This document shows, one piece after another, positions 28,691 through 31,671 of a stretch of 64,000 nt of DNA (its first letter is position 1; each line of letters begins with the position of its first letter). The notes under the pieces are model-generated. The model did not search any database. It saw only the letters and a list, made by a program, of their open reading frames with translations, and had not been told where the DNA came from. The stretch lies in NCBI RefSeq assembly GCF_024979295.1, contig NZ_JANLCJ010000003.1, positions 62,001-126,000 on the forward strand. The letters are read 5' to 3'. A program made the translations under genes and the position numbers. This DNA is from Herbiconiux daphne. GTDB lineage: Bacteria; Actinomycetota; Actinomycetes; Actinomycetales; Microbacteriaceae.

Positions 28691-29218
28691 ATGGGAATCC
28701 TGTGCACAGACATCCGGTTGACTGTGATTGTGAGTGAGAAGACAGGCACCGACCGCGTGCAGCACGACGCCGACCAGCGCGGCATCCCCGTCGAGATCAT
28801 CGAGCGCCCGCCGGCGGGCAGCCTCGAAGCCGCCGCGGCCGGACTCGGCCTCGAACCGGCCGACATCATGAAGAGCCTCGTGGTGAAGCGGCACGACGGC
28901 GACTTCTTGTTCGCCCTGATTCCCGGCGACCGCCAGATCAGCTGGCCGAAACTGCGCGCCCTGGTGGGCGTGAACAAGCTCTCGATGCCGCACAAAGACG
29001 TGGCCCTCGATGCGACCGGCTATGAGCGCGGCACCATCACGCCGCTCGGGTCGACCACGGCCTGGCCGGTCTACCTCGACGAGTCGTTCGCCGGCCGCCG
29101 CGTCGCCATGGGCGCGGGGGCTCCGGGGTTCAGTGCCCTCGTCGACGCCGACGCGCTCGCGCTCGGGCTCGGCGCCACGGTCGCCGACATCAGCGACCCG
29201 CTTCCGCCGCGGCCCTAG
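28691..29218 (+). CDS. YbaK/EbsC family aminoacyl-tRNA deacylase
   Basis: A 175-aa protein of the YbaK/ProX editing family, which hydrolyses mischarged aminoacyl-tRNAs (typically Cys- or Ala-tRNAPro). The conserved Lys lies in ADIMKSLVVKRHDGDF, with GDRQISWPKLRALVG and a final GSTTAWPVYLDES. The start is uncertain: the ATG at 28691 has no ribosome-binding site. GTG codons at 28724 and 28730 would give lengths nearer the family's ~160 aa. It is alone on this strand, convergent with the small Cys ORF. Confidence 0.87.
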   Translation: MGILCTDIRLTVIVSEKTGTDRVQHDADQRGIPVEIIERPPAGSLEAAAAGLGLEPADIMKSLVVKRHDGDFLFALIPGDRQISWPKLRALVGVNKLSMPHKDVALDATGYERGTITPLGSTTAWPVYLDESFAGRRVAMGAGAPGFSALVDADALALGLGATVADISDPLPPRP

Positions 29219-29249
29219 CACGGGCGCCGGGCCGCCGAGCGCCGCACGG

Positions 29250-29387
29250 TCACAGAGCGCAGGAATCGCCTTCGCAGACCGCTCCGGCGTCGCCGAGCGG
29301 CGCCAGCACCGTGAGCGGCGTCAGCCCGTTGAGCGGAGCACGCGGCGGCACCTCGGCCGTCTGGCTCCCGCCGTCGGCCGCGCTCAT
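29250..29387 (-). CDS. 45-aa cysteine-containing small protein coupled to DsbA-like gene
   Basis: A short open frame starting MSAADGGSQ and ending VCEGDSCAL, with two cysteines (38 and 43) in a C-x4-C arrangement next to the C-terminus. Its ATG overlaps the stop of the DsbA-family gene as ATGA, the coupling used by many true gene pairs in this window. I do not recognise a named family with certainty. Position and the terminal cysteine pair suggest a substrate, partner or metal-binding accessory of the thiol oxidoreductase. It has no signal peptide. A competing longer frame over the same bases has no such coupling. Confidence 0.65.
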   Translation of the reverse strand: MSAADGGSQTAEVPPRAPLNGLTPLTVLAPLGDAGAVCEGDSCAL

Positions 29388-30052
29388 TGCCCGACCTCCA
29401 CGCGCTCGTCGGCGACCTGGCGAAGCACCTGGGCGAACGTCGACGCGTCTTGCGCACCAGAGACACCGTATTTTCCGTCGATGACGAAGAACGGCACGCC
29501 CTGGATGCCGTATTGGATCGCCAGGTTCTGGTCGGCCCGCACGTCGGCGAGGTATTCGTTCGCGCGGAGCGACCGCACCACGTCGTCGCGGTCGAAGCCG
29601 AGCTCCACCGCCAGATCGGCGAGGCCGTCGATGGTTCCCACCTGCCGGCCCTCGACGAAGTAGGCCTTCAGCAGGCGCTCCTTCGCCTCGAGCTGAAGGC
29701 CGCGGGCCTTGGCGTAGTGGATGAGCTGGTGCGCCAGCACGGTGTTCGCGTGCTTGAGGTTGGGGTAGTCGTAGTCGAGGCCCACCGACGCGGCGATGCC
29801 GGTGACTCGCTCGAGCATCGGCCCGATCTGCTCGGGCGGAAAGCCCTTCATGGCCAGGAACTCCTCATGGCTGCCCGCGAAGTCGACGGGAGTGTCGGGC
29901 GAGAGTTCGAAGCTGTGGTACTCGATCTGCACCGGCACGGCGTCGTCGTCGACCCCGTATTCGGCGATGCCGTTCTCGAGCTTGCGCTTGCCGATGTAGC
30001 ACCAGGGGCAGGCGATGTCCGACCAGATGTCGATCTTGATGGCGTCACTCAT
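29384..30052 (-). CDS. DsbA family oxidoreductase (FrnE-like)
   Basis: A 222-aa thioredoxin-fold protein with an inserted helical domain. The active site is CPWC (Cys15 and Cys18) in DIWSDIACPWCYIGKRKLE; the cis-Pro loop is in GVPFFVIDGKYGVSGAQ. There is no signal peptide, so like FrnE it is cytoplasmic and may be a disulfide isomerase or a 2-hydroxychromene-type isomerase relative. It lies 57 bp after uppS and overlaps the 45-aa cysteine ORF by 4 bp. Confidence 0.93.
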   Translation of the reverse strand: MSDAIKIDIWSDIACPWCYIGKRKLENGIAEYGVDDDAVPVQIEYHSFELSPDTPVDFAGSHEEFLAMKGFPPEQIGPMLERVTGIAASVGLDYDYPNLKHANTVLAHQLIHYAKARGLQLEAKERLLKAYFVEGRQVGTIDGLADLAVELGFDRDDVVRSLRANEYLADVRADQNLAIQYGIQGVPFFVIDGKYGVSGAQDASTFAQVLRQVADERVEVGQ

Positions 30053-30109
30053 GCAAAGGTGAACCGCGCCGGCTCAGAAGTCATTCCGCATCGGTCATCC
30101 TGCACGAAG

Positions 30110-30925
30110 TCAGTCCTCATCCGCCGCCGTCGGGGTGTCGACCGCTCCCCCGAACCGGCGGTTGCGGCCCGCGTAGTGCTCGATCGCCTGCCACAGGTCG
30201 ACCCGGGTGAAGTCGGGCCAGAGCCGGTCGAGGAACACCATCTCGGCGTACGCCGACTGCCAGGGCAGGAAGTTGCTCGTGCGCTGCTCGCCCGACGACC
30301 GCACGAACAGGTCGACATCGGGCAGGTCGGGAACGTAGAGGTGCTTCTGAATGAGTCTCTCCGACACGGCTGACGGCCGGATGCGCCCGGCGGCCACGTC
30401 GTCGGCGATGGCCCGCACGGCATCCGTGATCTCGTTACGGCCGCCGTAGTTGACGCACATCGTCAGCGTGAGGGTCGAGTTGTGCGCCGTGAGCTGCTCG
30501 GCGAACTGCAGTTCTTTGATCACGCTCGCCCAGAGACGCGGCTTGCGGCCGGCCCAGCGGATGCGCACCCCCCACTCGTTGAGCTGGTCACGCCGACGGT
30601 GCAGCACCTCGCGGTTGAATCCCATCAGAAAGCGCACCTCGTCGGGCGAGCGCTTCCAGTTCTCGGTCGAGAAGGCGTAGACGCTCACGTGCTCCACGCC
30701 GATCTGAATCGCCCCAGCCACCACGTCGAGCAGGGCCGCCTCCCCGGCGCGGTGGCCCTCGATGCGGGTGAGGCCGCGCTGGTTCGCCCAGCGGCCGTTG
30801 CCGTCCATCACGATCGCGACGTGCTTCGGCACCGACCCCTTGGGCAGCGACGGCGGCTGCAGCCCCGTCCAGTCGAGGGGCCGGAACGGCTCCGCCTTGT
30901 CGGACGTCTTTCGAACGGGACTCAC
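30110..30925 (-). CDS. uppS: Isoprenyl (undecaprenyl/decaprenyl) diphosphate synthase
   Basis: Cis-prenyltransferase making the polyprenyl carrier for peptidoglycan and other envelope glycans. The 271-aa protein has [16 protein letters not shown] with the catalytic Asp41, the [17 protein letters not shown] loop, and [20 protein letters not shown] for diphosphate binding. The GTG at 30925 overlaps the recO stop (GTGA) with GAAGG upstream; longer frames extend into recO. The recO-uppS pair is conserved in actinobacteria. Product chain length cannot be judged by eye. Confidence 0.95.
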
Positions 30926-31671
30926 TGCGGCTGAACCTTCTTCGTCTGCGACCGTTCGACGTGCTCGAGCGATCGGAGCCCGCGTTCCAGGTGCCATTGG
31001 GTGTACGCCGCAACGATACCGCTCGCGCGGGAGCGGGTCGCCGGCTCCGACGAGTCGGCCGACGACCAGTCGCCGGTGAGCAGGGCCGCGAGCAGCTCGA
31101 GGGTGCTGACATCCAGTCGCGGCGTGCCCGGGGGCGCGACCTTGTCGCTCACCACCCCGCCCAGCTGCACCACGAAGGCCGAGTGCGGGCCCGCCTCGCC
31201 CGTGACGGCGCAGTCGTGGAAGCTCGGCGCCCAGCCCGCCATCGAGAGCGCCCGCAGCAGGTAGGAGTCGAGGGTCATCGCGGCCCCGTGCTCGCCGCGT
31301 GAGAGCGATCGCAACGCTCCGACGAGCAGCAGGTACTGCTGCAGCGACGGCTCTTCTTCGGTGAGCTTGTCGGCGGTCTCCACCATCGCGCTCGCCGCGG
31401 TGTAGCTGGCGTAGTCGGCCGTGATCTCGGCGCCGTAGGAGCCGATCGTCACCGCCTGGGTGATGGTGTCGAGGCTCCGGCCCTCATAGAACTGCACGTC
31501 GGCCACCATGAAGGGCTCGAGCCGGGCGCCGAACTTCGAGGCCGTTCGCCGAACGCCGCGGGCGACCGCGCGCACCTTGCCGTGCTGACGGGTCAGCAAC
31601 GTGACGATGCGGTCGGCCTCACCCAGTTTGTGGGTGCGCAGCACGACGGCTTCATCTCGGTAAACGGGCAC
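30922..31671 (-). CDS. recO: DNA repair protein RecO
   Basis: Mediates RecA loading and strand annealing in RecFOR repair. The ~249-aa protein begins [20 protein letters not shown], followed by [20 protein letters not shown], both classic for the N-terminal OB fold; the rest is helical. I prefer the GTG at 31671, about 10 bases after GAGGG; a TTG two codons upstream is the alternative. Translation is coupled to uppS. Confidence 0.94.

Follow-up and report, generated by a model that had tools for sequence, protein, structure and literature searches.

What does a 45-codon open reading frame (ORF) with two cysteines at its very end do when it starts on the stop codon of a DsbA-family gene? The question arises in Herbiconiux daphne (Microbacteriaceae; assembly GCF_024979295.1), within a 64,000-nucleotide window of contig NZ_JANLCJ010000003.1 (positions 62,001 to 126,000, forward strand; all window coordinates below count from its first letter). 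The ORF is probably the detached C-terminal C-x4-C tail of the neighbouring oxidoreductase FrnE, coupled to it and regenerating the enzyme in trans. By sequence, it is a conserved gene that has its own start at the end of frnE, is linked to frnE and is homologous to the tail.

The ORF occupies 29250..29387 on the minus strand, stop included, and runs from an ATG at 29387 through 45 codons to a TGA ending at 29250, encoding MSAADGGSQTAEVPPRAPLNGLTPLTVLAPLGDAGAVCEGDSCAL. Its C-terminus, GDAGAVCEGDSCAL, closes on VCEGDSCAL, with Cys38 and Cys43 forming a C-x4-C motif (C38-E-G-D-S-C43, codons at 29259..29276). The ATG overlaps the TGA stop of a 222-residue DsbA-like gene (29384..30052, minus strand) as ATGA at 29384..29387. 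A Shine-Dalgarno (SD)-like GGAGG (29395..29399) lies 7 bases upstream of the ATG, within the last codons of that gene (V-E-V, near its C-terminus). Both the overlap and the two cysteines five positions apart had been claimed in an original prediction made from the letters alone, and both are confirmed.

The 222-residue neighbour is an FrnE-type enzyme and probably not a secreted DsbA. It matches Pfam DSBA (E 6.7e-40) and has a DSBA-type thioredoxin fold with a CXXC near its N-terminus (C15-P-W-C18, codons at 29999..30010). Its best PDB sequence matches are FrnE of D. radiodurans (DrFrnE; 2.4e-52) and SCO1869 of S. coelicolor (7.6e-36). The structure model reaches a predicted local distance difference test score of 93.6, and the five best Foldseek matches are all DrFrnE entries, with template modelling (TM) scores of 0.90-0.92 and the top hit at 0.92. 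As read from the sequence, the N-terminus MSDAIKIDIWSDIACPWC runs directly into the fold with no evident signal peptide; the original description of a DsbA-family neighbour with a CPWC site keeps its fold and motif and is narrowed to FrnE. The active site reads CPWC at 124 and CPFC at 3 of 128 family loci (127/128), the remaining one being a partial match. The FrnE chain of the window ends in QVADERVEVGQ, which is free of cysteine; the C-x4-C pair sits instead on the next ORF.

DrFrnE (DR_0659; PDB 5cnw, 5co3, 5coh, 5cp1 and 5xwh) shares the fold and the CXXC with the window enzyme (46-47% identity) and shares the tail segment P-L-T-M-L-G ... C-x4-C with the detached peptides. The DrFrnE tail is covalently part of the enzyme C-terminus, whereas the window tail is a separate chain with its own start. 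According to the passage on these proteins in the review PMC8945050, many FrnE bear a further conserved CXXXXC at the C-terminus, and crystals of DrFrnE show one molecule placing its tail at the active site of a second. That passage also describes an intermolecular Cys244-Cys22 disulfide in crystals grown with dithiothreitol and proposes that the tail regenerates the active site. SCO1869 (PDB 3gl5) and other actinobacterial FrnE likewise combine the FrnE domain with a C-terminal Cys pair; unlike the window protein they are fused (229-275 residues as read) and often carry CGPDGC in place of CEGDxC. The FrnE of D. maricopensis and S. roseofulvus also have no C-x4-C on the chain, and a separate tail gene goes unmentioned in the PMC8945050 passage that describes them.

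Comparison of the segments themselves indicates that the Cys segment of the peptide shares ancestry with the tail that other FrnE carry in frame, a point that the original prediction had missed. In other actinobacteria and in DrFrnE the tail reads G-D-x-x-A-x-x-C-x4-C in frame at the FrnE C-terminus, and the 45-residue product carries the same P-L-x-x-L-G-D-x-x-A-x-x-C-x4-C type of segment. A class-level sample covered 49 of 82 other places, 3 of which recur in the family set; its FrnE C-termini have an in-frame Cys pair in 15 of 49 cases, a detached one in 7 and neither in 27. Thirteen of the 15 in-frame pairs are C-x4-C (for example GGGACEGDTCAV), with one x5 and one x6. A 22-position tail profile, built solely from 54 detached peptides, returned two matches in the PDB (up to E 10): first DrFrnE 226-248 (PLTMLGQDAPAEGCEDGQCAVPQ, E 0.053), with both cysteines aligned, and second an FKBP (E 0.3). 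A PDB search with the single window peptide gave chance-level matches only. Whole-genome searches with the profile hit 8/119 and 3/24 genomes at E ≤ 0.001 and 13/296 at E ≤ 0.0003, amounting to 19 distinct genomes; the matches comprise 14 detached peptides beside frnE, 4 fused FrnE C-termini (L297, L298, L299 and L304; E 2.5e-5 to 9.6e-5) and 1 solitary ORF. The solitary ORF (L295, genome G142, about 1440-1570) is a 44-residue microprotein copy away from any frnE gene.

A single locus would be unconvincing, because an overlapping ORF with C-x4-C also arises in 118 of 2,880 (4.1%) dinucleotide shuffles of DNA downstream of loci with an RTGA overlap (R, A or G); it is conservation that convinces. 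The window and all 14 Herbiconiux congeners read have the ORF with an ATGA or GTGA overlap and CEGD[STA]C (a 15th congener, G015, a weak match, was left out). In a sample of 150 genomes of the family, a threshold of E ≤ 1e-40 finds frnE in 127, which represent 75 of 85 genera, and all 128 frnE places were read: 107 are followed by a separate ORF carrying the Cys pair, 19 are not, and 2 are undecided (labels here and in the other sets come from profile scoring followed by hand relabelling of 11 loci over all sets). The separate ORF is present at least once in 63 of the 75 frnE-bearing genera. The original prediction had named absence of the frame downstream of orthologous genes as the outcome that would tell against it; instead, most family orthologues read are followed by the conserved frame with its two cysteines.

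The profile follows frnE across whole genomes as well. It matched 18 of 20 frnE-bearing family genomes at E ≤ 1e-4, these being picked among genomes already read, many of which contributed to the profile; the 2 that it missed have CCGG-type peptides. Among 20 (of 23) family genomes without frnE at the 1e-40 threshold it found no match at E ≤ 0.01 (best 0.026). In a named set of 80 loci, 56 have the ORF, 23 do not and 1 is undecided. Holders of the pair in this set include Herbiconiux, Agreia, Agromyces, Cryobacterium, Curtobacterium, Frigoribacterium, Microcella and Salinibacterium, and further Rhodococcus, Williamsia, Gordonia, Aeromicrobium, Cellulomonas, Isoptericola, Sanguibacter, Solirubrobacter and Paracoccus.

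On an FrnE tree of 244 rows (FastTree, unrooted, with some long branches) 13 changes account for the detached state, where shuffling requires 68 on average, so that its distribution tracks lineage, with several losses or transfers. From these comparisons, an appendage that serves catalysis in cis in known FrnE appears to have turned into a coupled microprotein across a large lineage of actinobacteria. No description of a detached form of the FrnE tail was found in open-access literature searches. In one draft assembly (L155, ~50 contigs), two deletions bring the tail into frame with FrnE and also cost the enzyme part of its core; this is the sole in-frame fusion in the family set, is counted among the undecided loci, and may be either a re-fusion or an assembly error.

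How might a detached tail work? After the frnE stop, ribosomes would re-start at the overlapping ATG, and coupling by re-start would lead to enzyme and peptide being made together. With its Cys pair, the flexible peptide would reach into the CPWC site of the enzyme, forming and then resolving mixed disulfides so that the active site is regenerated in trans, in analogy to the DrFrnE tail of one chain that is proposed to serve the active site of another. What we infer here is thiol exchange with CPWC and regeneration in trans. The peptide may also pass electrons between FrnE and a thiol peroxidase. A detached tail of this kind would offer a natural case of an enzyme's catalytic appendage turned into a separate, translationally coupled chain, and a route to the reductant and partners of FrnE.

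Several observations weigh against this assignment. The 19 of 128 family loci without an adjacent ORF, together with 14 of 16 decidable named Microbacterium loci, suggest that FrnE can work without the peptide. The profile match to DrFrnE is marginal, and for the 15 fused tails from the class-level set the best independent E-value of the profile was 0.053, with shuffled tails reaching 0.19. AlphaFold modelling of a natural fused relative leaves the tail disordered and thus shows no docking. The ratio of nonsynonymous to synonymous polymorphism (pN/pS), pooled over the 15 genus rows, is 0.68 for the peptide and 0.38 for frnE, a weak purifying signal; the synonymous/nonsynonymous comparison proposed in the original prediction therefore lends the frame weak support. 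Within the peptide the ratio is 0.63 in the core and 0.73 outside it, and mean column conservation at codon positions 1, 2 and 3 (0.763, 0.713 and 0.642) is likewise weak. The N-terminal half evolves freely; its free length fits what is expected of a linker. Both cysteines are constant in the 122 cores analysed, which were chosen for having the pair.

A wider role is a tentative extension of the assignment. The microprotein could be a portable thiol relay, a diffusible Cys-pair chain through which FrnE and other thiol enzymes, chiefly glutathione peroxidase (Gpx)-type peroxidases, would exchange electrons. Equally tentatively, evolution may have moved the segment among the FrnE C-terminus, a free peptide, a tandem double peptide and the N-terminus of Gpx or glutathione S-transferase (GST). 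Both ideas draw on the grafts of the segment onto Gpx and GST and on convergent gpx genes at peptide-less Microbacterium frnE. In L302 (genome G371, 2064-2720), and also in L300, the microprotein forms the N-terminus of a glutathione peroxidase (GSHPx, 8.9e-34), in L302 still coupled to frnE through ATGA; the Gpx graft was found in 1 of 149 genomes of an order-level sample searched at E ≤ 1e-50. In two Paracoccus (L279, after its frnE, and L318:2501-3280), namely Paracoccus sp. M683 and a P. sanguinis plasmid, it forms the N-terminus of a GST with a four-base overlap with the frnE end. These peroxidase and GST grafts name candidate partners, and if the relay exists, FrnE would be the reductase of an actinobacterial peroxide-defence chain.

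The gpx neighbourhood is concentrated in Microbacterium and genus code g106. A convergent gpx lies beside frnE at 13 of the 15 named Microbacterium loci scored as peptide-less (L233, L234, L235, L237, L239 and L242 among them), at most 122 nucleotides from the frnE stop in 12 of the 13; at L246, one of the two without a gpx seen, the sequence ends 53 nucleotides past frnE. Over all sets, gpx accompanies 17 of 72 loci labelled as having neither form but none of the 170 detached or the 15 fused loci, with 16 of the 17 in Microbacterium or g106; Microbacterium counts here as one lineage, and most family stretches cover only about 500 nucleotides downstream. A Cys motif that seemed to follow Microbacterium frnE in L233, L234 and L237 was rejected as the antisense of the gpx gene. 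Small frnE-coupled ORFs occur on two Streptomyces plasmids as well (L320 from about 1845; L321:1845-2042): the S. tendae ORF holds two C-x4-C units in tandem, and that of S. griseorubiginosus, annotated as hypothetical protein WP_326569904.1, has both cysteines in the second unit only.

That the peptide is instead a dedicated substrate or metal carrier of FrnE, standing outside its catalytic cycle, is unlikely. Such roles had been offered in the original prediction, and Cys-rich CCGGGCC variants in Cryobacterium and other lineages, as well as the cadmium induction of D. radiodurans frnE reported in the relevant passage of PMC8945050, would suit them. Most members, however, have two cysteines only, none of five window proteins scanned handles metals, and in other lineages the enzyme itself ends in this segment, which is also grafted onto thiol enzymes. 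Positive evidence for either role is small, and the thiol-redox grafts and neighbours suit a redox function of the peptide better than metal carriage or a natural-product origin.

A programmed −1 frameshift at the ATGA, yielding an FrnE-tail fusion in which the tail is never a free chain, is very improbable. The ORF does lie in the −1 frame directly at the stop in 138 of 158 scored loci, and an in-frame tail exists in relatives. Yet the frame is +1 in 15 and 0 in 5 of these loci, some of which have spacers and an SD-like site before the microprotein's own start. Joints of other kinds include TAATG in L080, TGACATG in L106 and, in L097 and L107, a stop in frame with a new ATG after it; the peptide has its own ATG 31-86 nucleotides downstream of frnE in L076, L147 and L149, preceded by GGAG in L076 and L147. 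A purine before TGA, a need specific to a start codon, is maintained: A or G stands there at 135 of the 159 distinct ORF-bearing loci (as ATGA or GTGA) compared with 9 of 82 loci without the ORF (Fisher p 3e-30, nominal because the loci are related). An SD-like match of at least 4 nucleotides is found at 112 of the 135 overlapping loci versus 24 of 82 loci lacking the microprotein. The mean match is 4.5 at the site, 3.7 at 45 nucleotides further upstream in the same genes and 2.9 in genes without the ORF, so part of the SD excess reflects general composition. Frameshift fusion does not account for the +1 and 0 frames, the spacers and the own starts, and the peptide reads as a separately started chain, not a frameshift product.

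The notion of a ribosomally made, modified peptide precursor with the oxidoreductase as its maturation enzyme is scarcely credible. The variable N-terminus and conserved Cys-bearing C-terminus do resemble a leader/core layout, but the other scanned neighbours are the housekeeping genes uppS, dus and ybaK, and the segment shows homology to the tail of an enzyme and stands N-terminal to Gpx and GST in fusions. Of the four roles originally offered, that of redox peptide is thus the one strengthened, through homology to the FrnE C-x4-C tail, and that of precursor the one abandoned.

A chance ORF in GC-rich DNA, for which the frequency of C-x4-C among the shuffles and a pN/pS that is not low could speak, is for practical purposes refuted through cross-genus conservation, as the frame is kept at 107 of 128 family places and recurs in the corresponding position in further families of actinobacteria and in one genus of proteobacteria.

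The window peptide and eight relatives matched nothing in Pfam-A or NCBIfam up to E 1, apart from NF041416 at E 0.16, far under its cut-off. The assignment supplies a testable proposal of function for a small-protein group of which these nine members fall outside such models. A second conserved block, about EHHEQAVVNRRLDEDLV, follows the Cys pair in L080, L102, L103, L116 and others. One genome (G165; L047 and L063) has two nearby frnE genes, with a CCGGGCC-type microprotein after one of them only.

Scans of 29000-30200 for terminators and sigma-70 promoters gave no match. Upstream of frnE on the same strand, family scans place a uppS-like isoprenyl transferase gene (30110..30997), and the gene preceding uppS is presumably recO-like. 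Downstream of the 45-codon ORF lie a convergent gene for a YbaK-like aminoacyl-tRNA editing protein (28691..29218, plus strand; Pfam tRNA_edit 2.8e-26) and a dus gene.
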